A DNA stretch of 64,000 nt from Lutimonas zeaxanthinifaciens. GTDB taxonomy: Bacteria > Bacteroidota > Bacteroidia > Flavobacteriales > Flavobacteriaceae. The stretch spans positions 2,666,001 through 2,730,000 of the forward strand of contig NZ_CP129964.1 of assembly GCF_030503675.1 (NCBI RefSeq). Reading direction: 5' to 3'. Below, piece after piece: positions 15,564 through 54,796 of the stretch. Under the pieces are notes generated by a model. It saw nothing but the letters and a program-made list of their open reading frames with translations, was not told the DNA's origin and did no database searches. Within the stretch, counting starts at the first letter, position 1. Every line of letters starts with the position of its first letter. Position numbers and translations under genes: made by a program.

Positions 15564-15567
15564 TATT

Positions 15568-16320: not shown

Positions 16321-16424
16321 TGAGCGGTTAAAATAGCATCGAAATCGCTTGGGGATGCCATGAATTTTTTGTAACTTAAAGGGTTGATTTTAAGTGTTTT
16401 TATTAACCGAAAAAATGCATCCCT

Positions 16425-17165: not shown

Positions 17166-17268
17166 GAAGAAAGCAAGAAGGTCCAACTGGTTTATCAGTA
17201 TGGCAACAGGTGAAATTTCAAAGATTAGGCTTTGCTTTTTTTGTATCTTAATCACTTAATACAATACA

Positions 17269-20740: not shown

Positions 20741-20812
20741 TTCCAATAATTAATAATTGTTTTTGTTTTAAAGGCGAAAATTACTTGAATTAAAGCAATA
20801 ATCATAAGAATT

Positions 20813-32305: not shown

Positions 32306-32369
32306 GATTTTTGATTTTAAAATTATTCCTGAGCATTCCACCCAAGGAGAACATTTCATTCTTAATCAC

Positions 32370-36744: not shown

Positions 36745-36760
36745 GCCAAATACCGTGCCA
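36745..36760 (-). promoter_or_regulatory. Candidate sigma-54 promoter of the ureohydrolase operon
   Basis: On the minus strand TGGCACG (36760-36754), a perfect -24 box, is followed after 4 bases by TTGG, one base off the -12 TTGC. The predicted start would be near 36733, next to the ABM ATG. It lies between the gene and a tandem palindrome, downstream of a sigma-54 activator gene. Confidence 0.6.
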
Positions 36761-36831: not shown

Positions 36832-36874
36832 TGATATTTTCGTGAAATATCACTTATTCGTGAAATATCACGAG
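36832..36874. promoter_or_regulatory. Tandem palindromic sites, candidate enhancer for the sigma-54 activator
   Basis: TTCGTGAAATATCAC occurs twice, at 36839-36853 and 36857-36871, 18 bases apart. The second copy is the palindrome TCGTGA-AATA-TCACGA; the first has one arm decayed but is flanked by TGATATTT, which pairs with AAATATCA. The sites are about 75-115 bases upstream of the candidate sigma-54 promoter, a usual enhancer distance. Confidence 0.65.
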
Positions 36875-39066: not shown

Positions 39067-39257
39067 TCGAAAATACCTTTTAATGATTCGTACTAAATAA
39101 ACAAAAGTAACAAATGTTTATCTAAAGATTTCCGATGTGCTTAAAACTTTAAATGCCCTAAGGTGTAGGAATTAAATAATATTAAAATTAGAAATATTTT
39201 AATCTATTGCCCGTTTTCAAAAATGCATCTTGAATTTCCTCCATTATAATTTTAACC

Positions 39258-40400
39258 CTATTTTTTCATAATACTTCTGGCGATGACTAATTTTTGAATC
39301 TCAGAAGTCCCTTCGTAGATTTGAGTTATCTTAGCATCCCTCATTAAACGCTCAACATGATATTCCTTTACAAAACCATATCCTCCGTGGATTTGTACAG
39401 CCTCAACAGTATGTTTCATAGCAACCTCAGACGTTTTTAATTTAGCCATTGCAGCCATCAAACTATAGGGCAAAGACAGGTCCTTTTGTTTGGCAGCAGT
39501 TAAAGTTAGTAAGCGTGCACATTCAATATCAACCATCATATCCGCCAATTTAAAGGCAACAGCCTGATGTTGATTGATGGGTTTTCCAAATGACTTTCTT
39601 TCATGTGAATAGGCGAGTGCCAATTCATAGGCCCCGGCAGCTATTCCCAAAGCCTGCGAGGCAATACCTATTCTTCCACCATCCAATGTCTTCATGGCAT
39701 ATTTAAATCCAAATCCATCAGGTCCAATTCTATTTTCCTTTGGCACTTTGACATCCTGAAACATAACACTGCAGGTATCTGAGGATCTTATACCTAATTT
39801 ATCTTCTTTGGGTCCTGTGCTCACTCCCTGCGAATCAGCCTCCACAATAAAGGCATTTATTCCTCTATGTCCTTTTTCAATATCCGTTTGAGCGATTACC
39901 ACATAAATATCAGCCGTTGACCCATTGGTGATCCAATTTTTGGTGCCATTCAAAAGATAATGGTCTCCTTGATCAGTAGCCATTGTTTTCTGACTTGTAG
40001 CATCCGATCCCGCCTCGGGTTCTGACAAACAAAATGCTCCCATATAATCCCCTGTAGCTAATTTGGTAAGATATCTCTGCTTTTGATCCTCAGATCCGAA
40101 AGCTTCAATACCCCAGCATACCAGAGAGTTATGTGCGGAAAGAATCACAGAGCTTGAACTGTCAATTTTAGAGATTTCTTCCATAACCAATACATATGAA
40201 ATCATGTCCATTCCTCCTCCCCCGTATTTTTCGGATACGGTCATACCAATAAAACCCATTTCTTTCATCTGCCTGACACCTTCCACCGGATATTCCCCTT
40301 TTGTGTCACGCTCAATAACTCCCGGTTTTAAAACTCTTTGGGCAAACTCCCTTGCTGCCTCCTTAATATTGTTATGCTCTTCTGTTAAAGTCAGATCCAT
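39258..40400 (-). CDS. Acyl-CoA dehydrogenase
   Basis: The 380-residue protein fits short/medium-chain acyl-CoA dehydrogenases: FCLSEPEAGSD and WITNGSTADIYVV (FAD and substrate contacts), GGYGFVKEYHVERLMRD, and the catalytic Glu in IYEGTSEIQKLVIAR near the end. It introduces the alpha-beta double bond into an acyl-CoA, passing electrons to ETF. It is the last gene of the TonB receptor-acyl-CoA ligase-MFS-SDR-aminotransferase-SDR operon, with a 12-base gap from the SDR. No enoyl-CoA hydratase or thiolase is encoded nearby. Confidence 0.93.
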   Translation of the reverse strand: MDLTLTEEHNNIKEAAREFAQRVLKPGVIERDTKGEYPVEGVRQMKEMGFIGMTVSEKYGGGGMDMISYVLVMEEISKIDSSSSVILSAHNSLVCWGIEAFGSEDQKQRYLTKLATGDYMGAFCLSEPEAGSDATSQKTMATDQGDHYLLNGTKNWITNGSTADIYVVIAQTDIEKGHRGINAFIVEADSQGVSTGPKEDKLGIRSSDTCSVMFQDVKVPKENRIGPDGFGFKYAMKTLDGGRIGIASQALGIAAGAYELALAYSHERKSFGKPINQHQAVAFKLADMMVDIECARLLTLTAAKQKDLSLPYSLMAAMAKLKTSEVAMKHTVEAVQIHGGYGFVKEYHVERLMRDAKITQIYEGTSEIQKLVIARSIMKK

Positions 40401-40412
40401 TTGTCATTCATT

Positions 40413-41216
40413 TTACAATCCTGCAGACATACCACCAGCAACGGGTAAAGCAATACCTGTAATATATTTTGATTTATCACTTGCTAAAAAAACCACCGCA
40501 TCGGCCACCTCAGCAGGATCTCCATATTTTCCCAACGGAACCAACATACTCAACTCTTTTATTGCCGTTTCCCGATCAACATTATGGTCTTTCATAAATC
40601 CTGATACCTCAATATCTGACATAGCGGTATCTATCATTCCCGGACATACACAATTTATTCGAATGGAATGACTTCCATATTCGGCCGCCAAATGTTTTGT
40701 TAGGCCCACAACGGCAAATTTCGAAGCTCCATAACCAGAAAATTGAGCCAAACCGGCTAATCCCGCAGTTGATGCATTATTGACAATAACACCACCACCT
40801 TGCTCTATCATATGAGGTAAAACAGCCTTAATGAGTTTGACCATACCAAAAACATGAACGTCAAAAGCCAAACGCCAATCCCTTTCATCCAGGTTCAGAA
40901 AATCACCAACCCCTGCAGGGACTCCGGCATTATTAAATAAGACATCAATGCGTCCATACTTAGTTAGAACCTGATCAACTAGATTCTTTATATCAATATC
41001 ATTTGTAACATCCAGTCCAAGCCCAAAGGCGCTACCGCCTTCACTTAGTATTTGGTCAACAACATCCTGAACCGGGCCAACATCATCATTCTTTAATTTA
41101 TCACTTACAATTACATTAGCGCCTTCAGAAGCCATTTTTAAAGCTGTTGCTCTTCCCATTCCTCTCTCACTTGCTGCTCCCGTGATAATGACAACTTTTC
41201 CCTTTAGTGAGTTCAT
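40413..41216 (-). CDS. Short-chain dehydrogenase/reductase (SDR)
   Basis: The 267-residue protein has TGAASERGMGRA (12-23), the same two-residue expansion of the Gly loop as the SDR at 32370-33170, then NNAG (95-98), S149 and Y162-x-x-x-K166, and ends ALPVAGGMSAGL. The similarity of start, loop and end suggests the two arose by duplication or share a substrate type. It begins 1 base before the aminotransferase stop region ends (gap of 1 base), so it is tightly packed in the operon. Confidence 0.9.
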   Translation of the reverse strand: MNSLKGKVVIITGAASERGMGRATALKMASEGANVIVSDKLKNDDVGPVQDVVDQILSEGGSAFGLGLDVTNDIDIKNLVDQVLTKYGRIDVLFNNAGVPAGVGDFLNLDERDWRLAFDVHVFGMVKLIKAVLPHMIEQGGGVIVNNASTAGLAGLAQFSGYGASKFAVVGLTKHLAAEYGSHSIRINCVCPGMIDTAMSDIEVSGFMKDHNVDRETAIKELSMLVPLGKYGDPAEVADAVVFLASDKSKYITGIALPVAGGMSAGL

Positions 41217-41217
41217 A

Positions 41218-42618
41218 TTAATGTTTCCAAATTTTTTCTTTTAGTAAATCATCCATCGTCAATTCTATACTCTTCCTTAGTATCAAAATCGATTGATCTA
41301 TAGCCGTTTTATCAAAGGTCAAAGGAGGCGACAAAACGATTAAAGCACCAATTGGCCTAACGATAAGACCCATTTTTCTAGCGTGGTGATAAACACGCTT
41401 TGCAATACCAATTTCAGGTTCAAAAGCGAATTTTGTCGTTTTATACGCCACTAATTCCAAACTCAGCATATAGTGACTCCCCCTTACATCACCTACAATT
41501 TCCAGATCAGACAAGGACTTGAGTTGCTGTTCAAAATAGGGGCCCCACTTTTGAACATGTTGGCAGAATCCATCTCTTTCTAAAATTTCAATATTCTTCA
41601 GACCCACCGCACAGCATAAGGGATGGCCTGAATATGTAAAACCGTGTGAGAAATAAGGATTTTCCTTTTTTGGCCGGCTTATCACCTCATAAATTTCATC
41701 CGAAATTACGGTCGCACCGAGAGGTACATATCCAGAAGAAAGTCCTTTGGCCATAATAATTACATCCGGCTGGATGCCAAACATTTCTTCTGAGGAAACC
41801 ATATGACCCAGTCTCCCAAAGGCGGTGACAACTTCATCCGAAATGTAAAAAATATCATGTTTTTTACACAAGTCAAAAGTTCTTTTATGATATCCTCTTG
41901 GTGGTACAATCACACCTCCGGCTCCCATGATCGGTTCAGCTATAAAGCAGGCAATATTGTCCTCACCTTCTTTAAGAATATAATTCTCCATTTCATCAAT
42001 AAGAAAATCACAGAATTCCGTTTCTGAGAGCTCATTCTGATTTCTGTAGGCATAAGGAGCCGTTAGATAATGTATCATGTCAAATGGAAGGTCAAATGCC
42101 ATATGAGTAGGCCTTATTCCCGTTAGTGCATGTGCCAAATACGTACTTCCGTGATAAGCCAAATCTCTTGAAATAATCTTTTTCTTCTTCGGCTTTCCTA
42201 TCAGGTTAAAATAGTAATGAATCATTTTTATGGCCGTATCATTGGCCATGGATCCTCCGGTTCCAAAAAACACATGATTTAGGTTTTGAGGACATAAACC
42301 CGCAATTTTGGCTCCCAAATCCGCAGCAGGTATGGAACCCGCATCTTCAAAGGTGTTATAATAGGCTAATTTTCTTGATTGATCAGCCGTGGCTTGCGAT
42401 ATTTCTTCATTTCCATGGCCTATATTAACACACCACAGACCTGCTATACCATCAATATATTCTTTTCCGTTCATATCATAAATATGATGGTCCTTCCCCT
42501 TTTCATATATTACAGACCCCTCTGTTTTGAAATTTTCAAAATTTGTATAGGGATGAATGACATGATTTTTATCCTTTGTCCAAATTTCCTTTTCCTTTGA
42601 TTTTAATTGTTTCTCCAT
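41218..42618 (-). CDS. Class III PLP aminotransferase (omega-amino acid type)
   Basis: From ATG 42618 the protein has 466 residues. It shows class III features: GSMANDTAIKMIHYY, ISDEVVTAFGRLG, and the PLP lysine in IMAKGLSSGYVPLGA. Members transfer the terminal amino group of beta-alanine, GABA, putrescine or similar amines to pyruvate or 2-oxoglutarate. DLAYHGSTYLAHALTG resembles the omega-amino acid:pyruvate group. It is the fifth gene of the TonB operon. A TTG at 42627 would add three residues; the ATG is preferred. Confidence 0.9.
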   Translation of the reverse strand: MEKQLKSKEKEIWTKDKNHVIHPYTNFENFKTEGSVIYEKGKDHHIYDMNGKEYIDGIAGLWCVNIGHGNEEISQATADQSRKLAYYNTFEDAGSIPAADLGAKIAGLCPQNLNHVFFGTGGSMANDTAIKMIHYYFNLIGKPKKKKIISRDLAYHGSTYLAHALTGIRPTHMAFDLPFDMIHYLTAPYAYRNQNELSETEFCDFLIDEMENYILKEGEDNIACFIAEPIMGAGGVIVPPRGYHKRTFDLCKKHDIFYISDEVVTAFGRLGHMVSSEEMFGIQPDVIIMAKGLSSGYVPLGATVISDEIYEVISRPKKENPYFSHGFTYSGHPLCCAVGLKNIEILERDGFCQHVQKWGPYFEQQLKSLSDLEIVGDVRGSHYMLSLELVAYKTTKFAFEPEIGIAKRVYHHARKMGLIVRPIGALIVLSPPLTFDKTAIDQSILILRKSIELTMDDLLKEKIWKH

Positions 42619-42667
42619 TTGAGTCAATATTAATTTTTGTTAAGCAAAATTTTAACATTTTTTGCCG

Positions 42668-43435
42668 TTACTCCTGTATCTTTTCTAATAGTTGATTACT
42701 CACACCTGCCGTCCATCCACCATCAACAATAAGGGCCTGCCCATTGATGTATTGAGCTGCCTCGCTGGCTAAAAAATGAAATACTCCCACTAAATCATCA
42801 GTTTCGGCAACGCGTGACATCGGAGAAAATAAGTTACTCATGAGTTCGGCATACGCAGCATCTTCTGATTGGGCCATCATAGGGGTTTTGGTATTTGACG
42901 GACAAACTGCATTCACCCTTATTCGTTGATGTGCAAGTTCCAAGGCTGCTGTTTTCGTCAAGCTGATTACTGCGGCCTTACTCGCTGCATAAGGCTCCAT
43001 TCCGGCCACTTTTGTAAAGGCAGCCTGAGAGGCTGTATTAATTATGCTACCTCCTTGATTCATATATCTTGGTCCATACTTGAGCCCATACATCACTCCA
43101 AATACGTTGATATCAAATACTTTAGACCATTTTGCAGCATCCCCCTCTTCCAAGACTCCTGAGAGAAGAGAAATCCCGGCATTATTTATCAAAACATCTA
43201 TCTTGCCAATCTTATCGACCGAGGTTTCAAAACCATCTCTTACAGATGATTCTTTCGAAACATCCATAAAAACATAGGTTGCCCCTATGCTTTTTGCCAA
43301 TTTCTCGCAGTTTTCTATATCTGCCAGGATTACTTTAGCTCCTTCTTGTACAAAACTTTTTACTAAAGCTAATCCAATACCACTGCCTCCTCCAGTGACC
43401 AATATATTCTTGTTTTGTAATGAAAAATATTTCAT
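42668..43435 (-). CDS. Short-chain dehydrogenase/reductase (SDR)
   Basis: The 255-residue protein has TGGGSGIG (14-21), NNAG (84-87), S136 and Y149-x-x-x-K153 and ends ALIVDGGWTAGV. Its ATG overlaps the stop of the MFS gene by 4 bases, so the two are translationally coupled. Function probably oxidation of a hydroxylated intermediate of the imported compound. Confidence 0.9.
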   Translation of the reverse strand: MKYFSLQNKNILVTGGGSGIGLALVKSFVQEGAKVILADIENCEKLAKSIGATYVFMDVSKESSVRDGFETSVDKIGKIDVLINNAGISLLSGVLEEGDAAKWSKVFDINVFGVMYGLKYGPRYMNQGGSIINTASQAAFTKVAGMEPYAASKAAVISLTKTAALELAHQRIRVNAVCPSNTKTPMMAQSEDAAYAELMSNLFSPMSRVAETDDLVGVFHFLASEAAQYINGQALIVDGGWTAGVSNQLLEKIQE

Positions 43436-44556
43436 GACTTTCTTAATTTCTTATTGAATGAAGCGTAAATAAATGACATACAGGCCACTGTGAAAATCAA
43501 GGCTGAAACGATAGCTACAAGCCTATAATCTCCATAATGATAAAATAATGAAAGTGTGAAGGGACCAAGAGCAAAACCTATAGAATACATTGGCATGACC
43601 ATCACCAGGGCTTTTCCCGTCTGATCACTCTCAGCCAAGATACCTGTAGCGTAGGGTAAAATCATATTGATTCCAAAACTACCAATAGCAAGTGCGGCCA
43701 CAAACATTATCGGAGACGGATGGGACAAAATGATAATCCCAAAAGCAATCAATCCTACAGAACTAATATAAATCGGAATTTTTCTGCCGTATCTGTTCTC
43801 CACAAGTATAGGTATCAAAAGCCCTATAATGGCTGCTAATAAAGATATAAATAGGGCATCAGCGATATAAGCTTCAGAAAAGCCCTCATCCTTACCTATC
43901 CTTTCTGAAAAGGCCCATAAACCTCCATAACCGACAAACATAATTAATATGCCAGTCAATCCGAATATTGATTTATTGCTTAATCTTTTAAGTTCAGCTG
44001 TATCCTTTTCAATGATTTTATTAAAGGGAAGAAAAAAGATAACTAATGGCACGGCTATAAGAGCTGCGAGTATCTGTAACCCAAATATAACCATAGCGGA
44101 ATTCAAATAAGATAATAAAGGGATCAATTCGACACTGACCGCTCCTGTAACCAATGTCAGTATCAAATACATTGCAAAATTCCTCTCAGTTTCCTTAGAA
44201 TCATTAATTACTACTAAGGCCAAAGCAATTGCAAGGCCCTCTCCTAAGCCTGTCATGAACCTAATTATTAACAACGAAGTAAAATCATTCTGAAATATCG
44301 AAAGTAAGTTTCCGGTAATGATCAGTGTTAATCCGATCAGAGCAACCTTCTTCCAATCGAATTTCCTTATCCAGAAAAAAGAAGAAATAGATGCAATAGC
44401 TGAACCCACCAAATCGGAAGATGCAAATTGACCCTGCTGAACCGCCGACAAAGAAAGGGATTCAGATACCATCCCCACCATCTGAGGAAGAAGGTATATC
44501 AATAACAACCCTGCATTTCCGAGAAAATAGCATGACCATAAATTTGCTTTTGTCAT
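43432..44556 (-). CDS. MFS transporter
   Basis: The 374-residue protein has about 12 transmembrane segments in two halves (break near residue 180-190, EKDTAELKRLSNKS). The motif-A loop is reduced (WIRKFDWKKVAL) and a second loop reads ENRYGRKIPIY. It is shorter than DHA-type exporters. Being placed between an acyl-CoA ligase and catabolic enzymes behind a TonB receptor, it is probably the inner-membrane importer of the same compound. It overlaps the following SDR by 4 bases. Confidence 0.85.
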   Translation of the reverse strand: MTKANLWSCYFLGNAGLLLIYLLPQMVGMVSESLSLSAVQQGQFASSDLVGSAIASISSFFWIRKFDWKKVALIGLTLIITGNLLSIFQNDFTSLLIIRFMTGLGEGLAIALALVVINDSKETERNFAMYLILTLVTGAVSVELIPLLSYLNSAMVIFGLQILAALIAVPLVIFFLPFNKIIEKDTAELKRLSNKSIFGLTGILIMFVGYGGLWAFSERIGKDEGFSEAYIADALFISLLAAIIGLLIPILVENRYGRKIPIYISSVGLIAFGIIILSHPSPIMFVAALAIGSFGINMILPYATGILAESDQTGKALVMVMPMYSIGFALGPFTLSLFYHYGDYRLVAIVSALIFTVACMSFIYASFNKKLRKS

Positions 44557-44569
44557 TTTTGATTTGTTT

Positions 44570-46120
44570 TTATTTTCTAAGCTCTCGTTTTAAAATCTTT
44601 CCCGTAGCGCTTAATGGCATTTCACTGATAAACTGAACTATTCTTGGGTACTTGTAAAGTGCTATTCTGGTTTTAGTCCATTTAATGATTTCTTCTTCTG
44701 AAACACTACCCTCTTCATTAAGAACAATGAATGCCTTTATTTCTTCTCCCATTTTCTCATCAGGAACCCCAACAACCGCAACGAGTGAAACACTTTCATG
44801 CTGCATAATAACCTCTTCCACCTCCCTTGGATAAACATTAAGGCCTCCTCTTAAGATCATATCCTTGGTACGGTCAACTATATAATAAAACCCCTCTTCA
44901 TCCTGAACAGCGACATCCCCTGAATGCATCCATCCGTTTTTAAGGGCTTCTGCCGAAGCAGAAGGCATTTTATAATACCCTTTCATCACATTGTGTCCCT
45001 TAAATAAGAGTTGACCTTTCTCACCCGGTGAAACAGGATTTCCAAGATCATTAACAAGTTTTACCTGCACGCCCCAAACCGGTTTCCCTATTGAGCCTGC
45101 CTTTCTTTTTTGGCCTGGGTGATTAAAGCTGACTACAGGAGATCCCTCTGACATCCCATATCCTTCATAAATTGAAACTTGAAATTTCAATTCAAAATCG
45201 TTTAACAATTGAACAGGTAAAGAAGCACCTCCTGAAATACAAAATTTGAGATTTCTGCTAATTTCTTCATAATCAATTAAACCTACATCATCTATGTGAT
45301 TCATTAGTGCCCAATACATGGTGGGAACACCGGCAAAGATGGTGACTTTCTCCATTTGCATTCTTTCAAGGACCAAGCCCGGATCAAATCTTGGAAGAAC
45401 AACATTACTGATACCATGCATGATACTGGCATTCATCAAACAGGTTTGTCCAAAAATATGGAACATGGGCAAAACCGTCATGGTAATATCATCCTGATTA
45501 AACTGAAAAAGATGTCTGCATAAATCAGCATTCCAGGCCAAATTTGAATGAGTTAGTTCGGCCCCTTTAGGTTTACCTGTTGTACCGGATGTATATATGA
45601 TTACAGCCGTATCCTCTGCTCCAACAGGAACTAAATCAAATGACTTGGACTCATGATCAATAAACGATTCGAACGATTTTGACAACGGAAAATGTTCCCT
45701 CTCATCCATCTCATTAGGCATGATTATAATTTCTTTGCAGAAAGAAACTTCTCGAAAAGCCGCATATCCTTCAGCACCTATCGGAAGTATATCCCATCCC
45801 TCATGACAAAAATAAAAAGAGGCCTCTGCATCATTCAAATGATAAATTATCTCATCCCTCTTAAGCAAAACACTCAAAGGAACCACCACACCTCCTGCTT
45901 TTAAAATACCATAATAAATAGCCGGAAAAAAGTATGAATTCGGACAGCTCAGAGCAACCTTATCATTCGCCTTAATACCGGCATTTATTAAAGCATTTGC
46001 CACTTGATTGGAAAGATAATTTAGTTCTCCAAAAGACAATTCCTTAAACTCGCCAATAATAGCTGGCTTGTCAGCATATCTTTTAGCCGAATCTTCTAAA
46101 CAAATGGATAAATTAAACAT
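44570..46120 (-). CDS. AMP-dependent acyl-CoA synthetase/ligase
   Basis: From ATG 46120 the protein has 516 residues with the adenylating-enzyme signatures: the P-loop IIYTSGTTGKPKGAELTHSN, YGMSEGSP, HSGDVAVQDEEGFYYIVDRTKD and the catalytic Lys near the end (LSATGKILKREL). It activates a carboxylic acid to its CoA thioester. It sits 9 bases after the TonB receptor gene and in the same operon as an acyl-CoA dehydrogenase, so a shared acid substrate is likely. A TTG at 46129 is rejected in favour of the ATG. Confidence 0.92.
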   Translation of the reverse strand: MFNLSICLEDSAKRYADKPAIIGEFKELSFGELNYLSNQVANALINAGIKANDKVALSCPNSYFFPAIYYGILKAGGVVVPLSVLLKRDEIIYHLNDAEASFYFCHEGWDILPIGAEGYAAFREVSFCKEIIIMPNEMDEREHFPLSKSFESFIDHESKSFDLVPVGAEDTAVIIYTSGTTGKPKGAELTHSNLAWNADLCRHLFQFNQDDITMTVLPMFHIFGQTCLMNASIMHGISNVVLPRFDPGLVLERMQMEKVTIFAGVPTMYWALMNHIDDVGLIDYEEISRNLKFCISGGASLPVQLLNDFELKFQVSIYEGYGMSEGSPVVSFNHPGQKRKAGSIGKPVWGVQVKLVNDLGNPVSPGEKGQLLFKGHNVMKGYYKMPSASAEALKNGWMHSGDVAVQDEEGFYYIVDRTKDMILRGGLNVYPREVEEVIMQHESVSLVAVVGVPDEKMGEEIKAFIVLNEEGSVSEEEIIKWTKTRIALYKYPRIVQFISEMPLSATGKILKRELRK

Positions 46121-46129
46121 TATGCACAA

Positions 46130-48613
46130 TTAAAAAAAGTTCGCTCTAAAATCAAGACCCATGGTTCTTGCCTGGTTCAAGGAAACAAAATCTCCGATCA
46201 GCCCCTGAAATCCATGCCCGAAATAGACCTGATCTGAAAGGTTTTTCCCCCATAATCCAATGTTATATCGTCCATCTTTTAAACTGTATCCAACTCTTGC
46301 ATTGATTAAGGTTACTGCCTTTCTGGAAATTGTTTCTGTATTAAAAATATCGTTATATGATTTAGCGGAATGGTTGAAATCAACACGCATAGAAAGCCTG
46401 CTTCCATTGTCAAAAGTTGTTCCATACTGAGGGGAGATGCTAAACGTATAACCTGGAGCCTTGGACAGCTCATTACCGCTTAAATCAATGTCTCCAAATA
46501 AGAACTCATCATATTTCATTTGTTGCACCCCACCGTTTACATCAATCTGGAAACCTTTCGCCAGAATGGCACTGAACTCTAATTCACCTCCATAACCAGA
46601 AGATTTTTCCGCATTGGCTATGACATTTGTGAGGCCCGCAAATAATAATTCTTGCTTATCCTTATAGTCAATATAATAGGCGGCTACATTTAAGCGGATC
46701 TTAGTGGTAAGTGATGACTTGAAACCAACCTCAAAGCTATTGATAAACTCTGGTTTGTATAAAACGTTGTCCTCTGTAGGTTCAAAACTATCTGTTTCTA
46801 AATAAGTTGATACTGCAAAATTATAACCCGTTCCTTTAAACCCTCTGGAAAACTTTCCATATAAAAGATTCTTTTCATTAACCTGATATGACAAACCAAT
46901 ATCACCCGTAAATATATTATCAGTGTTATCAAAAGTTTTTTGCTCATAGGGAGTACCCAATAACCATACAATTGGAAACCCAACAGCATCAATCGCATCC
47001 TGACTCTCAACCGTTTCCTGAAGTGTCTTGAAAGTTTTTGATTCTGAAGTGAACCTCAATCCCACGTTCAAGGATAATCTCTCGGTAAATTTATACCCTA
47101 AGGATCCAAATGCCGCAAAACTATTGTTGGAAATACTGCTATTATTAGAAACAGATTCTGTATAACCGGGTATAAACAGGTCATCTACCCCGAGATCCGG
47201 GCCAAGTAAGGGTGGCAAAAATTCCTGGGTTACCCCGATATCATTTCCTTTAATGTTTTCATTAACATAATATAAACCCGTGACATAATTCAATTTGAGG
47301 TCTCGAGGTGAATTCAATCTTATTTCTTGTGAAAACGTTCCGAATTCCTGGCTTCTGTCAAGATATACTGCCGGAATCGCGGAGGCTTCAACATCCTGAA
47401 TTGACTGATCCTCAGAACTTGAATACGCTGTTATTGAAGTTAATGTATTGTTCCCTATATCGGCAACCACTTTTCCGGATAAGCCAAACTGGCTCCTTTC
47501 AAAGGTAAAAGGTTCACTAAATGATGCCTCCCTGTTTTCATAATCATCCGGGGCAAATAAAATTGGGTCAAATGCCTGAAGATCCTCAGAGCTTAAATAT
47601 GAAAATGATGCTTCAGCAGAATTATCTTTCGCATAATACCCTTCAAAAGTGATATCAACGTGGTCACTTGGCTTAACTAATAGAGAAGCCCTCAGCCCAT
47701 AAAATTTCGTTTCATTTACCTTATCAATCTCAGGATCAATATGCTTTACAAAACTTCCATGTCTTTGATTATAAGCTCCTGAAATTCGGAGTGCAACCTT
47801 ATCTTTAGACAACTCGATATTGGCCATAGCCTTCGCACTGAAAAAATCAAAATTACCGCCGGAAACTTCTACGGCTCCACTGTTAAACATGCCTGGCTGG
47901 GCCGATATAATGTTAACCACACCACCTACAGTATTTTTGCCGAACAAAGTTCCCTGAGGTCCTCTTAAAACTTCTATTCGTTCCACATCCATGATTAGGG
48001 AGTTAAATCCATAAGCTCTTGATTGGTATACATCATTTATATACATACCAACAGCTTGCTCTAATCCAACCCCGTCGAAATTAGTTGAAAGCCCCCTGAT
48101 AGATATATTGGTCAGCGAAGGCCCGTACGAATCTGTAATTACATTAGGTACCGCGGTTAAAGCTTCAACAGAGGTATTAACCGTCCTTTCTTCCAAATCT
48201 TTTCTTCCCACAACCGTGGCGGATACATTCACTTTTTGCAAATTTTCCTCGACCCTGTTTGCCGTAACAACGACATCTTTAAGCGTTAATCCGTCCGGAG
48301 AAATACCAATGGTGATTCCACTTGATTCTTGTCCTTTTTTTATCTCACTCTCCGACAAAACATAGGTTTCATAGCCTAAAAAGCTAATTTCAATTTTAGA
48401 ATCGGCATTTTCAATATTCAATGTAAATTCACCATTAAATCCTGTCGCCACTCCATTATCCGTTCCTATCTCCAGCACCGTGGCACCTGGTACCGGATCT
48501 CTAGTTTCAATATCAATAACATACCCTTTAATAGTCTGTGCGGATATGTTTTGAGTCATCACTGAAACAACCACAACAATGAGTATTAATTTAATTTGAT
48601 TTAAGTTCATCAT
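46130..48613 (-). CDS. TonB-dependent receptor with CarboxypepD_reg-like domain
   Basis: The 827-residue protein has a signal peptide (about 1-26), a carboxypeptidase-regulatory-like domain (about 27-115; KGYVIDIETRDPVPGATVLE), a plug domain (about 118-245; NISIRGLST, EVLRGPQGTLFGKNTVGG) and a 22-strand-type barrel ending LDFRANFF. It imports a ligand across the outer membrane with TonB energy. There is no SusD partner next to it, and the plug resembles the non-SusC type, so a small molecule and not an oligosaccharide is likely. It is the first gene of a seven-gene minus-strand operon and is divergent from the Lrp gene. Confidence 0.93.
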   Translation of the reverse strand: MMNLNQIKLILIVVVVSVMTQNISAQTIKGYVIDIETRDPVPGATVLEIGTDNGVATGFNGEFTLNIENADSKIEISFLGYETYVLSESEIKKGQESSGITIGISPDGLTLKDVVVTANRVEENLQKVNVSATVVGRKDLEERTVNTSVEALTAVPNVITDSYGPSLTNISIRGLSTNFDGVGLEQAVGMYINDVYQSRAYGFNSLIMDVERIEVLRGPQGTLFGKNTVGGVVNIISAQPGMFNSGAVEVSGGNFDFFSAKAMANIELSKDKVALRISGAYNQRHGSFVKHIDPEIDKVNETKFYGLRASLLVKPSDHVDITFEGYYAKDNSAEASFSYLSSEDLQAFDPILFAPDDYENREASFSEPFTFERSQFGLSGKVVADIGNNTLTSITAYSSSEDQSIQDVEASAIPAVYLDRSQEFGTFSQEIRLNSPRDLKLNYVTGLYYVNENIKGNDIGVTQEFLPPLLGPDLGVDDLFIPGYTESVSNNSSISNNSFAAFGSLGYKFTERLSLNVGLRFTSESKTFKTLQETVESQDAIDAVGFPIVWLLGTPYEQKTFDNTDNIFTGDIGLSYQVNEKNLLYGKFSRGFKGTGYNFAVSTYLETDSFEPTEDNVLYKPEFINSFEVGFKSSLTTKIRLNVAAYYIDYKDKQELLFAGLTNVIANAEKSSGYGGELEFSAILAKGFQIDVNGGVQQMKYDEFLFGDIDLSGNELSKAPGYTFSISPQYGTTFDNGSRLSMRVDFNHSAKSYNDIFNTETISRKAVTLINARVGYSLKDGRYNIGLWGKNLSDQVYFGHGFQGLIGDFVSLNQARTMGLDFRANFF

Positions 48614-48691
48614 TTAAAATTCTTAGTTATTAGTCGTATTTTTTCATAATTGAACCGCTAAATTATAAATTTTTTATTTATAACCTAATAT

Positions 48692-48723
48692 TTTGTATTT
48701 TTTTTATTTTTATTGTACTTTTG
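48692..48723 (+). promoter_or_regulatory. Bacteroidota sigma-A promoter of the Lrp-carbamoylase operon
   Basis: TTTG (48692-48695), 20 bases, then TACTTTTG (48716-48723) match the -33/-7 consensus. The Lrp ATG is at 48740, so the leader is about 10 bases. Confidence 0.75.
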
Positions 48724-48739
48724 TGAAAATTTTTTATTT

Positions 48740-49261
48740 ATGAATTTATCCCATCCTCAATTAGATCAAATCGATATTCAAATACTTACTCATCTTCAAA
48801 AAGATGGGCGAAAATCTTTTACAGATATTTCCCAAGAAATGAATGTATCGGTGGGTATGATCAGAAACAGGTATCAAAAATTAGTGGAAAATAAAGTATT
48901 ACACATTATTGGCTGGACAGATCCGGTCAAAGCAGGATTAAATGCTTATGCTAGAATCAATATAAAAGTCAGACCAACTGATATCATCCAAGAGGTAGTG
49001 GAAGAGCTTACAAAAATTCAGGAGGTAAGTTTCCTGGCCCTCACCTCCGGTAATTATGACATCGAGATCAATATGACTTGTATTAATAATAAACACCTGC
49101 TCGATACCATAAATCAAAAAATTCACTCTATCAATGGGATTTTCGAAACAAATACCACGATGTATCTGGATGTTAGAAAATGGGCTTCTCAAGATGTAAG
49201 TCAAGATTTCAGCCACCTTGAAGTAAAAAACCAAGGAAAAGAAATAAATAAAAAAAAGTGA
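48740..49261 (+). CDS. Lrp/AsnC family transcriptional regulator
   Basis: From ATG 48740 the protein has 173 residues: an N-terminal HTH (about 10-60; LDQIDIQILTHLQKDGRKSF, SVGMIRNRYQKL) and a C-terminal RAM ligand-binding domain (about 70-150; ARINIKVRPTDI, LTSGNYDIEINM). Such proteins often sense amino acids. It is the first gene of the carbamoylase-ALDH-aminotransferase-SSADH operon (gap of 4 bases) and is divergent from the TonB operon, so it is probably the local regulator of both. The N-terminus is chosen because a TTG at 48713 would begin inside the promoter. Confidence 0.9.
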   Translation: MNLSHPQLDQIDIQILTHLQKDGRKSFTDISQEMNVSVGMIRNRYQKLVENKVLHIIGWTDPVKAGLNAYARINIKVRPTDIIQEVVEELTKIQEVSFLALTSGNYDIEINMTCINNKHLLDTINQKIHSINGIFETNTTMYLDVRKWASQDVSQDFSHLEVKNQGKEINKKK

Positions 49262-49265
49262 TTAA

Positions 49266-50492
49266 ATGATAGGGATCAACGAAGACAGGCTTTGGAAAAG
49301 GCTTATGGAAATGAGTCAGGTTGGAGGCACTGCCAATGGAGGTGTATGCAGAGTAACTCTAACGGAAGAAGATAAACAAGGACGGGATTTGTTTATTGAA
49401 TGGTGCAAGGAAGCAGGGTGTAGCGTCGAAATAGATCAAATGGGTAATATTTTTGCCAAAAGAGCAGGCAAGGATAATTCATTGTTACCTGTTATGGTGG
49501 GAAGTCATTTGGACAGTCAACCCACAGGGGGAAAATATGATGGGGTACTGGGTGTTTTAGCAGGCCTTGAAGTTATAGAAACTCTAAATGACTTAGAAAT
49601 TATCACTGAACATCCTATTGAACTTGTTTCATGGACCAATGAGGAAGGAGCAAGGTTTTCTCCGGCAATGATTTCTTCTGGCGTGTTTGCCAAAGAGTTC
49701 AGTTTAGAATACGCATATTCAAGAAAGGATAAAGATGGTTTGTTGCTGGGTCAAGAGCTTGAAAAAATCGGATATAAAGGTAGTGTCCCGGTTGGAAACA
49801 GGCCTTACAAAGCCACTTTTGAACTACATATTGAACAAGGGCCAATTTTAGAAGCCGAGCAAAAATCTGTTGGCATAGTTACAGGAGTTCAAGGAATTCG
49901 ATGGTATGATCTGACTTTTCAAGGTCAGGAAACACATGCAGGTCCTTCTCCAATGGGTTACCGAAAAGACCCGGTTAAAGAAATGCTTCCCTTATTGACA
50001 AGGATTTACAATTTCGAAGAAGAGTTTGGAAAACATGCGCGAATTACTATTGGGAATCTAATTGCCAGCCCGGGTGTTAGAAATACTGTACCAGGGGAAC
50101 TTAATGTCACACTTGACTTAAGGCATCCTGATACGGATAGTTTGACAGCCATGGATCTTGCCTTGAAAAAACTCATATCAAATTTTAACAAAACCAAAAA
50201 AGTTCAAGTCGAATTGGATCAAATTTGGTACTCAGAACCGATTCGTTTTGATGACAAATGTGTGTCGGCGGTTCGTGATGCCGTCGCCAAACTTGACTAC
50301 CCTGCTATGGAACTGGTTAGCGGTGCTGGTCATGATTCTGTATATATTTCTAAAGTTTCTCCAACAAGTATGATTTTCATTCCATGTGAAAAAGGATTGA
50401 GCCATAATGAAAAGGAAAACATTGAAAAGAAAGATGCCTTTCAAGGTACAAATGTCCTGTTGCATGCTGTTTTGGAACTTGCCTGCGAATAA
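49266..50492 (+). CDS. M20-family N-carbamoyl-amino-acid hydrolase / beta-ureidopropionase-like amidohydrolase
   Basis: The 408-residue protein has M20 metal ligands in order: H81 and D92 (GSHLDSQPTGGKYDG), E126-E127 (TNEEGARF), H188 (LHIEQGP) and a late His in GAGHDS, plus an inserted dimerisation domain (about 210-325). The family hydrolyses N-carbamoyl-beta-alanine, N-carbamoyl amino acids or allantoate and releases CO2 and ammonia. The enzyme probably frees an amino group that the aminotransferase of the same operon then removes. The substrate cannot be fixed from sequence. It starts 4 bases after the Lrp gene. Confidence 0.87.
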   Translation: MIGINEDRLWKRLMEMSQVGGTANGGVCRVTLTEEDKQGRDLFIEWCKEAGCSVEIDQMGNIFAKRAGKDNSLLPVMVGSHLDSQPTGGKYDGVLGVLAGLEVIETLNDLEIITEHPIELVSWTNEEGARFSPAMISSGVFAKEFSLEYAYSRKDKDGLLLGQELEKIGYKGSVPVGNRPYKATFELHIEQGPILEAEQKSVGIVTGVQGIRWYDLTFQGQETHAGPSPMGYRKDPVKEMLPLLTRIYNFEEEFGKHARITIGNLIASPGVRNTVPGELNVTLDLRHPDTDSLTAMDLALKKLISNFNKTKKVQVELDQIWYSEPIRFDDKCVSAVRDAVAKLDYPAMELVSGAGHDSVYISKVSPTSMIFIPCEKGLSHNEKENIEKKDAFQGTNVLLHAVLELACE

Positions 50493-50526
50493 AAATCATC
50501 CATTTTGTATCATTAAATCAATAATC

Positions 50527-52026
50527 ATGAAAGAATTAACAAAGACAATGGGTTTAAACGATTGCACTATTGACTTTTTAGATAATCCTGCTAAAATGCT
50601 CATAAACGGAGAATGGGTTTCGGCTCAAAGCGGGGAAACCTTTAAAACCATTAATCCGGCAGATGGAAGTTTTTTAAACGAGATACCTCTGGCCGGTATT
50701 GCAGACGTTAATAAGGCTGTAAACGCAGCAAAAAAATCCTTCGAAACTGTTTGGAATAATACGACTACACCGGCAGATCGAGCCTCTCTACTTTGGAAGC
50801 TGGCAGATCTGATGGAAAGAGATAAGCAAATCTTAATGGAACTTGAGACGCTTGACAATGGCAAACCCTTAGAAAAAGCAAGATACGACGTGGATTCTTC
50901 CATCAATCATTTTAGATATTATTCAGGATGGGCTACCAAAATTGAAGGTAACACATTACCTGTTGCAAACGATAGCATTGCCTTTACTAAAAGAGAACCA
51001 CTGGGTGTTACCGGCTTAATAGTTCCATGGAACTTTCCGTTGATGATTGCTTCCTGGAAATTGGCTCCTGCTTTAGCCTGTGGTAATTGCTGTGTTTTAA
51101 AGCCTGCGGAACAAACATCCTTAAGCGCCCTTTACTTGGGCAAACTCATTGAGGAAGCCGGATTTCCGGATGGGGTGGTGAATATCATAACAGGCCCCGG
51201 GCTACCTACAGGTCAGGCAATTTCTTCACATATGAATATTGACAAAATTAGTTTTACCGGATCCACCAAAGTTGGCCGCCAAATCATGGAGGCCGCGGCC
51301 CGTAGCAATTTAAAAAAAGTGAGTCTGGAACTAGGCGGTAAATCACCCAACATCATTTTTGAAGATGCCAACTTAGACCATGTATTTGAGAGTATTGTTT
51401 GGTCTAGTTTTTATAATACCGGTCAGGAATGCACTTTGGGTTCAAGAATTTATGTTCAGAGAAGTATCTACCAAAAGGTAGTTGATATCCTAAAAACAAA
51501 GGCTGATTCATTGAAAATTAATAAGGGAATGTTAAATCCAGACCTGGGACCGATGATCAGTGAGTCTCAACTTCAAACCGTTTTAAAATATATTGACATC
51601 GGCATCAATGAAGGCGCCGAACTCATTACTGGTGGTAAAAGAATACAAGGCGAATTAGGAAATGGTTACTTTATAGAGCCCACTATTTTTGCTCATCAAA
51701 ATGACCAGTTACAGATTGTACAGGAAGAAATTTTTGGACCGGTCGTGGTGATTTCCTCATTTGATACTTTTGACGAGGTGGTTGCCAGAGCCAATAATTC
51801 AATCTATGGACTAGCGGCCGCTGTTTGGACCAATGATATTTCTAAGGCTCATCGATTTGCAAACGAAGTGCAATCTGGTACAGTTTGGATCAATGGATAT
51901 GACATGTTTGATCCGTCAGTCCCTTTTGGAGGCTTTAAACAAAGTGGTATAGGAAAAGAAATGGGAAAAAGCGCAATTGAGTTATATACCAAGGAAAAAA
52001 CGGTATGGATTGGGCTTAAAGATTAA
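50527..52026 (+). CDS. NAD(P)-dependent aldehyde dehydrogenase
   Basis: From ATG 50527 the protein has 499 residues with the ALDH signatures: PWNFPLMIASWKLAPALACG, FTGSTKVGR, the general base Glu in LELGGKSPN and the catalytic Cys in NTGQECTLGSR. It oxidises an aldehyde to the acid. The wider context (class III aminotransferase, SSADH) suggests an amino-aldehyde or semialdehyde substrate. A frame extension to 50407 lies within the upstream gene and is rejected. Confidence 0.92.
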   Translation: MKELTKTMGLNDCTIDFLDNPAKMLINGEWVSAQSGETFKTINPADGSFLNEIPLAGIADVNKAVNAAKKSFETVWNNTTTPADRASLLWKLADLMERDKQILMELETLDNGKPLEKARYDVDSSINHFRYYSGWATKIEGNTLPVANDSIAFTKREPLGVTGLIVPWNFPLMIASWKLAPALACGNCCVLKPAEQTSLSALYLGKLIEEAGFPDGVVNIITGPGLPTGQAISSHMNIDKISFTGSTKVGRQIMEAAARSNLKKVSLELGGKSPNIIFEDANLDHVFESIVWSSFYNTGQECTLGSRIYVQRSIYQKVVDILKTKADSLKINKGMLNPDLGPMISESQLQTVLKYIDIGINEGAELITGGKRIQGELGNGYFIEPTIFAHQNDQLQIVQEEIFGPVVVISSFDTFDEVVARANNSIYGLAAAVWTNDISKAHRFANEVQSGTVWINGYDMFDPSVPFGGFKQSGIGKEMGKSAIELYTKEKTVWIGLKD

Positions 52027-52041
52027 TAATTAATATTAAAA

Positions 52042-53316
52042 ATGAATAAAACTATAAATTCCGGAAGAGACTATTTATCACCGGTCTGGACAAATCTTAC
52101 TGAAATTACTCCCGTAAAAGGAGAAGGAATTTACCTATATGACGAAGCTGGTCAGTGTTATATGGATTTTACTTCCGGTATTGGAGTAACTAATACAGGC
52201 CATAGTCATCCATACATTGTAAAAGAAGTTCAAAAACAGGCCGAATCACTTTTATTTGCCCAAATGAATTGTGTGATCAACCACAGAAGTTCAGAACTTG
52301 CCGAAAAATTAAATAGTTTAACGCCTGAACACCTCAACAGATTCTTCTTTTCAAATAGTGGAGCTGAAGCCACCGAAAGCAGTGTAAAACTGGCAAAAGC
52401 AGCAACAGGCAGAAGTAACATCATCGTATTTCAGGGGAGTTTTCATGGCAGAACCCATTTAGCCATGGCCATGACTACATCTAAAACGATTTACAGACAG
52501 AAATATCATCCTTTACCTTCCGGAATTTTTGTGGCACCTTTCCCCAATGCATTTTACTACGGCTGGGATGAAGACAGTACAGTTGATTTTTGCATCAAAG
52601 AACTCGATCTGCTGTTAAAAGGCCAGACGTCACCGGATGAGACCGCTGCAATTATTATTGAACCGGTTCTGGGAGAAGGAGGCTATGTGCCTGCTCCAAA
52701 ACGGTTTTTACAGCATTTGAGAAAAATATGTGATCAATATGGGATCATGCTGATTATAGATGAGGTGCAGAGCGGTTTTGGAAGAACAGGTAAATTGTTC
52801 AGTTTTGAGCATAGTGAAGTGAAACCAGATATCCTGGTTATGGCTAAAGGTCTGGGAAGTGGCTTACCAATCTCTGCCATAGCATCGAATGAGACACTGA
52901 TGAATAAATGGATACCAGGTACGCATGGTGGAACTTATGGGGGTGGCAGCACCCTTCCAACCGCAGCAGCATGCGCCACAATTGACGTACTATTGAATGA
53001 ACATTTGATTGAAAACGCCTCTGCAAGAGGAGTTCAGCTGGTTGAAGGGCTAAAAAATTTACAGGAAAAATTTCCATTTATGGGAGATATTCGTGGGCAG
53101 GGACTTATGATCGGAACTGAGTTTATCAATCCTGACAGGAGCCCTAACCCTGAAGTCGCAAGCAATATCATAAGTCATTGCCTGGAGCAAAATCTTATTT
53201 TAATGGGTTGCGGCACTTACAAAAATGTCATTCGCTGGATCCCACCTCTTGTAGTGACCGAATCTGAAATCAATAAAAGCCTGCGAATTTTTGAAAAGGC
53301 CTTAGAACTGGTTTAA
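52042..53316 (+). CDS. Class III PLP aminotransferase (4-aminobutyrate aminotransferase-like)
   Basis: The 424-residue protein has class III features: FTSGIGVTNTGHSHP, SNSGAEATESSVKLAKAATG, IIDEVQSGFGRTGKLFS and the PLP lysine in VMAKGLGSGLPISA. The pattern is close to 4-aminobutyrate and ornithine aminotransferases. Followed after 16 bases by a succinate-semialdehyde dehydrogenase, it fits a GABA-type step: amino acid plus 2-oxoglutarate gives semialdehyde. The two class III aminotransferases of the island differ in length and loops, so they probably act on different amines. Confidence 0.9.
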   Translation: MNKTINSGRDYLSPVWTNLTEITPVKGEGIYLYDEAGQCYMDFTSGIGVTNTGHSHPYIVKEVQKQAESLLFAQMNCVINHRSSELAEKLNSLTPEHLNRFFFSNSGAEATESSVKLAKAATGRSNIIVFQGSFHGRTHLAMAMTTSKTIYRQKYHPLPSGIFVAPFPNAFYYGWDEDSTVDFCIKELDLLLKGQTSPDETAAIIIEPVLGEGGYVPAPKRFLQHLRKICDQYGIMLIIDEVQSGFGRTGKLFSFEHSEVKPDILVMAKGLGSGLPISAIASNETLMNKWIPGTHGGTYGGGSTLPTAAACATIDVLLNEHLIENASARGVQLVEGLKNLQEKFPFMGDIRGQGLMIGTEFINPDRSPNPEVASNIISHCLEQNLILMGCGTYKNVIRWIPPLVVTESEINKSLRIFEKALELV

Positions 53317-53332
53317 TAAAAAATCGTGACTC

Positions 53333-54796
53333 ATGAAACTTAGAAATCGATCCTTACTTAAAAATCAATCCTATATTAATGGGAACTTTACAGACGCTTC
53401 CTCAGGAAAAACCTTTTCCGTTGTCAACCCTTATGACGGAAACCTTATCACTCAAGTATCCAATTGCGACAGAACAGATACGAAAAAAGCGATTTTGGCG
53501 GCACAATATGCCCTGGATGGCTGGAAAAAATTAACCGGGATTGAAAGAGGCCGTATTTTGAGAAGATGGTATGAATTACAAATAGAACATCTTGAAGATT
53601 TGGCCATTTTGTTAACTGCTGAACAAGGCAAGCCACTTGTAGAGTCTCGTGGAGAGATTCTTTACGGCGCCTCTTTTGTTGAGTGGTTTGCTGAAGAAGC
53701 AAAAAGAGTATATGGCGATATTATTCCTGCACATCAGCAAGACATAAGAATCAGTGTAATAAAACAACCCGTGGGTGTAGTGGCGGCAATAACACCTTGG
53801 AATTTTCCCAACGCCATGATTACCAGAAAAGTAGCCCCGGCACTTGCCGCAGGATGTACCATGGTATTAAAGGCCCCAAAACTTACTCCACTATCGGCTC
53901 TTGCATTGGCTGTTCTCGGAGAACAAGCAGGTATTCCGTCAGGAGTATTCAATGTCATTACAAGTGATAATGCAAGTGAAATTGGAAATGAATTAACCGA
54001 GAATCCCATCGTTAGAAAACTTTCTTTCACCGGTTCGACACCAGTGGGTAAACATCTTATTAAAAAATGCGCGGATACTGTAAAAAAAGTATCGATGGAA
54101 TTGGGTGGAAATGCCCCGTTTATCGTTTTCAGTGATGCTGATCTTGATAAAGCTGTTGAAGGGGTGATTAACTCTAAATTCAGAAATGCCGGGCAAACCT
54201 GTGTTTGCAGTAATAGAATATTTGTACAAGAAGAGGTTTATGATGTGTTTAATTCTAAACTGGCGGCAGCGATAAAGAAGTTGCGCTTAGGAAATGGTTT
54301 GGATGAACAAGTACATATCGGGCCCTTAGTTGAAGAAAAAGCCGTAAAATTTGTAGAGGATCTTGTAGCCGATGCCAAGGACCATGGTGCTCAAATTTTG
54401 ACAGGTGGCAAGCGATACAATCTGCATGAAGACTCCTTAATCTATGAACCAACACTCTTGACAGATGCTACCCAGAATATGAGGATCTTTAGAGAGGAAA
54501 TATTTGGCCCTGTTGCACCAATCTATGAATTCAGAAATGAAGAGGAAGTAATCAAAATGGCCAATGATACGCCTTATGGCCTGGCATGTTATTTTTATGG
54601 AAAAGATTTCGCTCAGATAACACGTGTTTCAGAAGCTTTAGAATATGGAATGGTTGGAATTAACACAGGAAAAATATCTACTACCCTTGCACCATTTGGA
54701 GGAATAAAAGAAAGCGGGTTTGGCAGAGAAGGCTCCAAATATGGAATTGACGAATATCTGGAAATCAAATATCTGTGCTTTGGCGATATAAACTAA
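53333..54796 (+). CDS. gabD: Succinate-semialdehyde dehydrogenase-type aldehyde dehydrogenase
   Basis: The 487-residue protein shows PWNFPNAMITRKVAPALAAG, FTGSTPVGKHL, MELGGNAPFIVF and the catalytic Cys in NAGQTCVCSNR, followed by GGIKESGFGREG, all in the GabD subfamily pattern. It oxidises succinate semialdehyde or a related short semialdehyde to the acid, feeding the TCA cycle. It is the last gene of the Lrp operon and is followed by a long hairpin (54796-54853). Confidence 0.9.
   Translation: MKLRNRSLLKNQSYINGNFTDASSGKTFSVVNPYDGNLITQVSNCDRTDTKKAILAAQYALDGWKKLTGIERGRILRRWYELQIEHLEDLAILLTAEQGKPLVESRGEILYGASFVEWFAEEAKRVYGDIIPAHQQDIRISVIKQPVGVVAAITPWNFPNAMITRKVAPALAAGCTMVLKAPKLTPLSALALAVLGEQAGIPSGVFNVITSDNASEIGNELTENPIVRKLSFTGSTPVGKHLIKKCADTVKKVSMELGGNAPFIVFSDADLDKAVEGVINSKFRNAGQTCVCSNRIFVQEEVYDVFNSKLAAAIKKLRLGNGLDEQVHIGPLVEEKAVKFVEDLVADAKDHGAQILTGGKRYNLHEDSLIYEPTLLTDATQNMRIFREEIFGPVAPIYEFRNEEEVIKMANDTPYGLACYFYGKDFAQITRVSEALEYGMVGINTGKISTTLAPFGGIKESGFGREGSKYGIDEYLEIKYLCFGDIN

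Follow-up and report, generated by a model that had tools for sequence, protein, structure and literature searches.

Bacteria can break down putrescine by the Puu pathway, in which a gamma-glutamyl group masks the amine during the conversion to gamma-aminobutyrate (GABA). Here, we describe an island in the genome of Lutimonas zeaxanthinifaciens that may use a carbamoyl group as the mask. The window, by which we mean the whole analyzed stretch of 64,000 nucleotides, corresponds to positions 2666001-2730000 of the single-contig 3.53 Mb genome, and coordinates below are counted within it. The core of the island encodes an Lrp/AsnC-family regulator (Lrp), an M20 hydantoinase/carbamoylase (M20), an aldehyde dehydrogenase (ALDH), two class III aminotransferases (AT1 and AT2) and a succinate-semialdehyde dehydrogenase (SSADH). 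We propose, with moderate confidence, that it would degrade a C4 amine with a carbamoylated second nitrogen. The individual reactions, their order, and the connection between core and peripheral genes are read from gene families, active-site residues and co-localization.

Several described systems resemble the proposed pathway in part. According to a 2025 paper, agmatine is converted to putrescine by agmatinase, by AguA together with a transcarbamylase, or by AguA and AguB, to which AguY has been added (PMC12283126). The AguA-AguB and AguA-AguY pathways share with our proposal the intermediate N-carbamoylputrescine, and AguA (in Halomonas) or an AguA-family lipoprotein (in another order of Bacteroidota) is found beside the core. 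In contrast to these pathways, there is no AguA in this genome, and decarbamoylation would follow the oxidation to the acid and be catalyzed by a metal-dependent M20 enzyme, instead of preceding it and being catalyzed by a nitrilase or a GatA-type amidase. The Puu pathway is similar in the use of a masked amine, its oxidation to masked GABA, the unmasking, and the final steps by GABA transaminase and SSADH. It differs in that the carbamoyl mask would already be present on the substrate here, with an aminotransferase in place of the PuuB oxidase and no ATP-dependent ligation. The reductive pyrimidine pathway has a homologous M20 enzyme, beta-ureidopropionase, with the same ligand residues and an omega-amino acid as product, but in our case no dihydropyrimidinase scores above the cut-off in the genome (best 212 vs. 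393 bits), and the partners of M20 are AT1 and ALDH. Finally, the arginine oxidase or 4-guanidinobutyrate pathway also has a ureohydrolase, a GABA transaminase and SSADH. However, the ureohydrolase of the island is an outlier without the usual catalytic histidine, and M20 is present in addition.

We found no description of a route from N-carbamoylputrescine and 4-ureidobutyrate via GABA to succinate in the open-licence literature, and no link of 4-ureidobutyrate to agmatine breakdown either, although an older or subscription report is possible. The main text of the 2025 paper does not contain the words ureido, aminotransferase or transaminase (PMC12283126). In metabolomics papers, 4-ureidobutyrate is filed under pyrimidines in one case and named among urine metabolites in another. 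If correct, our proposal would add a further bacterial exit from N-carbamoylputrescine besides putrescine, with the carbamoyl doubling as a protecting group that is already in place. Moreover, it would give M20 carbamoylases a physiological role outside pyrimidine breakdown, provide a source and a sink for 4-ureidobutyrate, and offer a testable candidate for marine bacterial use of red-algal ureido and guanylureido nitrogen.

Core genes and proposed pathway

On the plus strand, the core genes form an operon that opens with Lrp (48713-49261; ORF listing and family scan) and continues with M20 (49266-50492), ALDH (50527-52026; family scan), AT2 (52042-53316) and SSADH (53333-54796). The gaps are 4, 34, 15 and 16 bases, if the ALDH start is taken as 50527. 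The ALDH reading frame as listed opens at 50407, within M20, and the in-frame ATG at 50527 was chosen instead. AT1 (41218-42627) is part of a divergent operon on the minus strand.

In the simplest order of steps, AT1 would convert N-carbamoylputrescine to 4-ureidobutyraldehyde (or act on agmatine, see below), and ALDH would oxidize the aldehyde to 4-ureidobutyrate. M20 would then hydrolyze 4-ureidobutyrate to GABA, with release of the carbamoyl group as CO2 and NH3, and AT2 and SSADH would take GABA to succinic semialdehyde and further to succinate. Until its removal, the carbamoyl group would mask the amine and thereby keep the aminoaldehyde from cyclizing. As judged from the sequences, such a carbamoyl-masked route to GABA is the most likely function of the core.

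The assignment of M20 can be followed to the level of residues. The protein scores 403 bits against TIGR01879 (cut-off 204) and is matched along its whole length by RrCbetaAA (chain 8c46). The ligand residues E131, Q196, R291 and H385 of RrCbetaAA correspond to E126, Q191, R286 and H380 of M20 by a uniform offset of 5, and the Glu, Gln, Arg and His are invariant in 16/16 aligned M20 proteins, members of agmatine clusters included. In the work on RrCbetaAA, Arg291 is described to form a salt bridge with the ligand carboxylate, and the enzyme to hydrolyze N-carbamoyl-gamma-aminobutyrate, >1.5-fold over the alpha isomer (PMC10952681). Because M20 keeps the carboxylate-binding arginine, an acid substrate is favored over N-carbamoylputrescine.

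The other enzymes were assigned from profile and structure matches. AT1 scores 652 bits against PRK07036 (cut-off 618), and among solved structures it matches putrescine/omega-aminotransferases. SSADH scores 685 bits against TIGR01780 (cut-off 646). For AT2, PuuE is the nearest protein of solved structure. ALDH travels with M20 and AT1 in other loci, and its proposed role is that of a 4-ureidobutyraldehyde dehydrogenase.

Recurrence of the core in other bacteria

At E <= 1e-120, AT1 was found in 1 of 120 genomes of the family, which is the window's own, and at 1e-110 in 3/395 genomes of the phylum (the window's own, G339 and G499). M20 was found at 1e-90 in two of the 395 (the own genome and G339), and tblastn located an M20 beside AT1 in G499 as well. 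At 1e-150, AT2 was present in six of the 395, namely the same three and the f19 genomes G132, G153 and G249, in which searches for further window genes found no match nearby. The ureohydrolase was detected at 1e-100 in the own genome only (1/395). Among 22 genomes of the same genus, many of them incomplete, the TonB-dependent receptor (TBDR) of the minus-strand operon was found in three and this SSADH family in five. The low counts across the genome sets indicate that the island is rare and patchy in its distribution.

In the order to which G339 belongs, AT1 was found at 1e-150 in 6/128 genomes. In all six, Lrp-M20-ALDH faces a divergent AT1, and the Lrp orthologs, which are 57-60% identical to that of the window, are in the same place. 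AT2 follows ALDH in five of the six (the contig of G547 ends inside ALDH), and an agmatine-deiminase-family protein and an NhaC-type antiporter are present on the AT1 side in five (the contig of G551 ends by AT1). In the AT1 tree, the proteins from the window, L. saemankumensis, a Bacteroidia metagenome-assembled genome (MAG, L011) and the six genomes form one clade (100/100). The deiminase has a lipoprotein-like N-terminus (by eye), and the G499 protein matches solved agmatine deiminases and scores below the cut-off of the AguA model (167 vs. 382 bits). By eye, a serine-beta-lactamase-like protein is encoded between the deiminase and antiporter genes of G555, G553 and G547. In G499, such a protein follows the antiporter, and in G339 we did not see one. 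TBDR, the AMP-binding acyl-CoA ligase (ACS), the SDR proteins and SSADH of the window had no match in the fetched cluster stretches of this order.

An exported agmatine-deiminase-family lipoprotein, a serine-hydrolase lipoprotein and an NhaC antiporter are encoded in loci L015, L062, L063 and L064. To judge from these proteins, deimination of agmatine may be an extracytoplasmic step in the respective hosts.

Parts of the core are also found on plasmids. Ten plasmid AT1 loci, with flanks of 7 or 9 kb, were examined out of 632 records with a match. M20 is present in three (Halomonas, Rhizobium lusitanum and Ensifer) and agmatine deiminase in three (Halomonas, Phyllobacterium and Ensifer), while six contain neither. 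On the Halomonas plasmid, M20-ALDH faces AT1, which is followed by a bona fide AguA (TIGR03380, 572 bits vs. a cut-off of 382). The R. lusitanum plasmid has M20-ALDH facing AT1 and a polyamine-type ABC transporter (from a reading of the ORFs), and the Ensifer plasmid has an AT1-AguB-AguA-type arrangement with ALDH and M20 nearby. For the ureohydrolase and its neighbor LDH2 (see below), no plasmid match was found at 1e-40. Altogether, there are nine other loci in which M20 is accompanied by AT1 and ALDH, and seven of the nine also have agmatine deiminase. That the core recurs with this divergent layout in a second order, and in part on plasmids of proteobacteria, indicates that the set is more than a chance assembly. 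In these hosts, N-carbamoylputrescine would arise from agmatine through the deiminase. In L. zeaxanthinifaciens, the substrate would be taken up from outside via TBDR and the MFS transporter MFS2, or be derived from a larger guanidino or ureido compound via the ureohydrolase operon.

A first-pass annotation of the window had described a catabolic island with carbamoyl cleavage, transamination and semialdehyde oxidation, which gene families and comparative context support. Its tentative substrate, a ureido acid, was near the mark as to class, and the comparison narrows the core to the conversion of N-carbamoylputrescine or 4-ureidobutyrate to GABA and succinate. The view that the two operons are one co-conserved unit applies to Lrp-M20-ALDH(-AT2) with AT1 (6/6), but the association of TBDR-ACS-MFS2-SDR_A with AT1 was seen only in three Lutimonas genomes. 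The suggested search for the gene set in other genomes recovered the core in another order and partly on plasmids.

Points against the proposal and alternative readings

Several observations weigh against a carbamoyl-masked route to GABA. AT2 is under the cut-off of the GABA-transaminase model (TIGR00700, 364 vs. 507 bits). The four M20 residues, with the carboxylate-binding arginine among them, are also kept in a 27%-identical paralog, and the arginine is predictive of an acid substrate, not of ureidobutyrate in particular. Moreover, the M20 tree leaves the proteins from agmatine and pyrimidine clusters unseparated. In 7/10 plasmid loci, AT1 occurs without this M20 and together with other genes, such as a deacetylase-like gene (Roseovarius) or genes for an AMP-binding protein and an enoyl-CoA hydratase (Leisingera). 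On the Ensifer plasmid, AguB would yield free putrescine. A search for agmatine deiminase (PAD_porph) in the genome of the window gave 0 matches, with 5/14 control genomes positive. The first step seen elsewhere is thus missing, and the entry step differs in this genome. Finally, ACS, the acyl-CoA dehydrogenase (ACDH), the SDR proteins and TBDR are without a role in the core chemistry.

The absence of the deiminase would be explained if AT1 acted on agmatine itself, with ALDH forming 4-guanidinobutyrate, the ureohydrolase splitting it into urea and GABA, and M20 having a side role. The ureohydrolase and AT1 genes are close together in the window, in L. saemankumensis and in the MAG, and the conversion of arginine via 4-guanidinobutyrate to GABA is established (PMC2242806). 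We consider this route quite unlikely, because it leaves unexplained M20, a gene of the conserved core, and because the ureohydrolase has a serine for the catalytic histidine and scores below the agmatinase cut-off (TIGR01230, 116 vs. 174 bits). Its guanidinobutyrase score (101 bits) is also lower than the scores for proclavaminate amidinohydrolase (124 bits) and an agmatinase (115 bits). M20 might instead be the first enzyme, converting N-carbamoylputrescine to putrescine as a non-homologous replacement of AguB, with AT1 as a putrescine transaminase and ALDH as an aminobutyraldehyde dehydrogenase. Convergent replacement of N-carbamoylputrescine amidohydrolases is described for AguB and AguY (PMC12283126), and the structural matches of AT1 would fit. 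Nevertheless, this appears unlikely, since N-carbamoylputrescine has no carboxylate for the arginine that is kept in all 16 M20 proteins (PMC10952681 for its role).

It is still less probable that M20 is an ordinary beta-ureidopropionase or an allantoate-type nucleobase enzyme that is present in the island by chance. Allantoate amidohydrolase is its best NCBI subfamily label, above cut-off. Four M20 plasmid loci were fetched out of 314 matching records, and the three annotated ones are pyrimidine clusters with preA, a finding that also counts against our proposal: their M20 proteins are 52-53% identical to that of the window, and thus as close to it as those of agmatine clusters. The fourth locus, from Halioglobus, is not recognizably a pyrimidine cluster. 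The nucleobase assignment is weakened by the genome-wide result for dihydropyrimidinase, with no protein above the cut-off, and by the recurrent company of AT1, ALDH and agmatine deiminase. In addition, neither preA nor a hydantoinase was found among the scanned neighboring ORFs (the genome as a whole was not searched for preA and allantoinase). The two operons could also be functionally unrelated neighbors, with AT1 the only minus-strand gene that goes with M20-ALDH-AT2. In support, tblastn at 1e-8 gave no match for TBDR, ACS, MFS2, the SDR proteins and ACDH in the fetched stretches from the other order, Halomonas and R. lusitanum. However, AT1 is an internal gene of the minus-strand operon, 1 and 40 bases away from its neighbors, the order TBDR-ACS-MFS2-SDR_A-AT1 persists in a diverged third Lutimonas contig (G520), and the Halioglobus plasmid pairs M20 with homologs of SDR_A, SDR_B, MFS2 and TBDR (26-45% identity). 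A lack of any functional connection is therefore improbable in our view. The catabolic island is real, rare and partly modular, and the proposed carbamoyl-masked route is the most likely function of its core.

The ureohydrolase operon and the extent of the island

All 12 ORFs of the first-pass annotation (39258-54796) are present in the ORF listing, with matching order and ends, and the families that it had named held in profile scans, where TIGR01879, TIGR01780 and PRK07036 score above cut-off. The gaps, given as 1-49 bases, measure -4 to 40. The island limits had been drawn too small, with a sigma54-type regulator and the ureohydrolase operon (about 31.4-39.1 kb) overlooked. This minus-strand operon encodes a 103-amino-acid protein (duf103, 36421-36732), the ureohydrolase of the agmatinase superfamily (35235-36398), SDR_C (34421-35191), a protein of the malate/L-lactate dehydrogenase family (Ldh_2; LDH2, 33230-34369), SDR_D (32370-33170), and a protein (31448-32359; best model KbpA, below cut-off) that we take to belong to the VOC family. 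At the thresholds applied, the 103-amino-acid protein matches no Pfam or NCBIfam model. It precedes the ureohydrolase in the window, in L. saemankumensis and in the MAG, where it is 60% identical.

The ureohydrolase keeps the metal ligands (GGDH, DAHxD, DxDxxD). Where five aligned chains of solved structure, from four proteins, have the catalytic histidine (His163 of E. coli agmatinase), it has a serine (HSGNMF), which is shared by the proteins of L. saemankumensis and the MAG. The histidine of the E. coli enzyme has been proposed as a proton shuttle to the leaving amine, and one Deinococcus agmatinase has an asparagine at this position (PMC8125230). Loss of the histidine is thus not diagnostic. 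The genome has three further arginase-family genes, and two of them keep the histidine at the matching place (by eye). The third protein (L026, G000:C1:2634145-2634864) has lost the DxHxD metal motif, and is perhaps a non-catalytic member of the family.

It is conceivable, though doubtful, that the island serves the catabolism of gongrine and gigartinine, guanylurea storage compounds of red algae. Both are reported from red algae, and in one species guanylurea amino acids are stated to make up 48.3% of total organic nitrogen (PMC13208526). The ureohydrolase would split gongrine, gamma-(guanylureido)butyrate, into urea and 4-ureidobutyrate, which would feed M20 directly and be taken to succinate by M20, AT2 and SSADH. 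As the leaving group would be urea and not an alkylamine, a proton-shuttling histidine might be less needed. From gigartinine, the ureohydrolase would release citrulline. A PLP decarboxylase of the diaminopimelate/ornithine type (below cut-offs; 26916-28295, minus strand), an uncertain island member, could turn citrulline into N-carbamoylputrescine for AT1 and ALDH. A citrulline decarboxylase was sought in two polyamine papers, whose main text does not contain the word citrulline. In a milder form, the island would use conjugates of gamma-ureidobutyrate, such as the bromophenols coupled to methyl gamma-ureidobutyrate that are described for red algae (PMC3705374, PMC9322897).

The sigma54-type activator (36934-39066, minus strand) has an N-terminal membrane region and a PAS-like part, as read from the translation. 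With scores below the respective cut-offs, its AAA+ part resembles NorR/NifA/NtrC-type models. The protein is 90% identical in L. saemankumensis and 57% in the MAG, in the same place. Upstream of the ureohydrolase operon, a tandem near-palindrome (36840-36873; first copy TCGTGATATTTCACGA in minus-strand reading) is a candidate enhancer site for this activator. It is retained in L. saemankumensis. In the MAG, the first copy is identical despite mostly different flanking bases, and the second is partly changed. Across the whole window, the count of matches to the near-palindrome is not above chance. A TGGCAC-N5-TTG-like element (36745-36760, minus strand) is similar in the same two relatives and is a weak candidate for a sigma54 promoter. 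Conservation in three related loci is its only basis, it is too near the ATG, and a motif scan of the window gave 20 matches compared to 27.3 in shuffles, i.e. below chance.

The minus-strand operon with AT1 comprises genes for ACDH (short-chain type, 39258-40400; family scan), SDR_B (40413-41216), AT1, SDR_A (42668-43435), MFS2 (43432-44556; family scan), ACS (44570-46129; feruloyl-CoA synthetase is the nearest solved structure) and TBDR (46130-48613), with gaps of 12, 1, 40, -4, 13 and 0 bases in this order. SDR proteins are paired across this and the ureohydrolase operon (SDR_A/SDR_C 42% and SDR_B/SDR_D 40% identical). TBDR has a carboxypeptidase-like N-terminal domain, and its score of 65 bits against the SusC model (cut-off 368) indicates that it is not SusC. 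No SusD was recognized by eye among the ORFs listed, although a SusD model was not run on every ORF.

In L. saemankumensis (L010 and the overlapping L066 and L067), the arrangement of genes is that of the window all the way from SDR_F at 58.5 kb to MFS1 at 25.2 kb, except that window positions 39171-40373, nearly all of ACDH, are cleanly missing (at L010 position 12254). The annotation had noted the absence of a complete beta-oxidation set, which agrees with the ORFs listed. Protein identity between L010 and the window is mosaic, with only 81-93% from MFS2 to the sigma54-type regulator and 97-98% for the nearest flanking genes. The MAG has AT1-SDR_B-ACDH-regulator-duf103-ureohydrolase-SDR_C-LDH2 in the same order, with 57-91% protein identity, on a contig that ends on both sides of this stretch. 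The association of SDR_B-ACDH-regulator-ureohydrolase with AT1 was seen in Lutimonas and this one MAG. The GC content does not show a sharp island edge, with a peak of 0.459 over 32-34 kb.

A cytidine-deaminase-fold protein (30534-31130, minus strand), separated from the VOC gene by 317 bases, is a further uncertain member of the island. A 50% identical homolog of the PLP decarboxylase is encoded near M20 in the plasmid locus of Halioglobus pacificus (L033). In this locus, a DDAH/arginine-deiminase-family protein precedes M20, which faces SDR_B, the decarboxylase, SDR_A, MFS2, an AraC-type regulator (by eye) and a TonB receptor. Two long N,N-dimethylformamidase-like proteins (by eye) are encoded further on. 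Elsewhere in the window, translations of positions 11902-20746 indicate two GH20-type hexosaminidases, a SIS-domain protein and related genes, which have the look of amino-sugar use, and those of positions 8209-10916 a molybdate-type ABC transporter.

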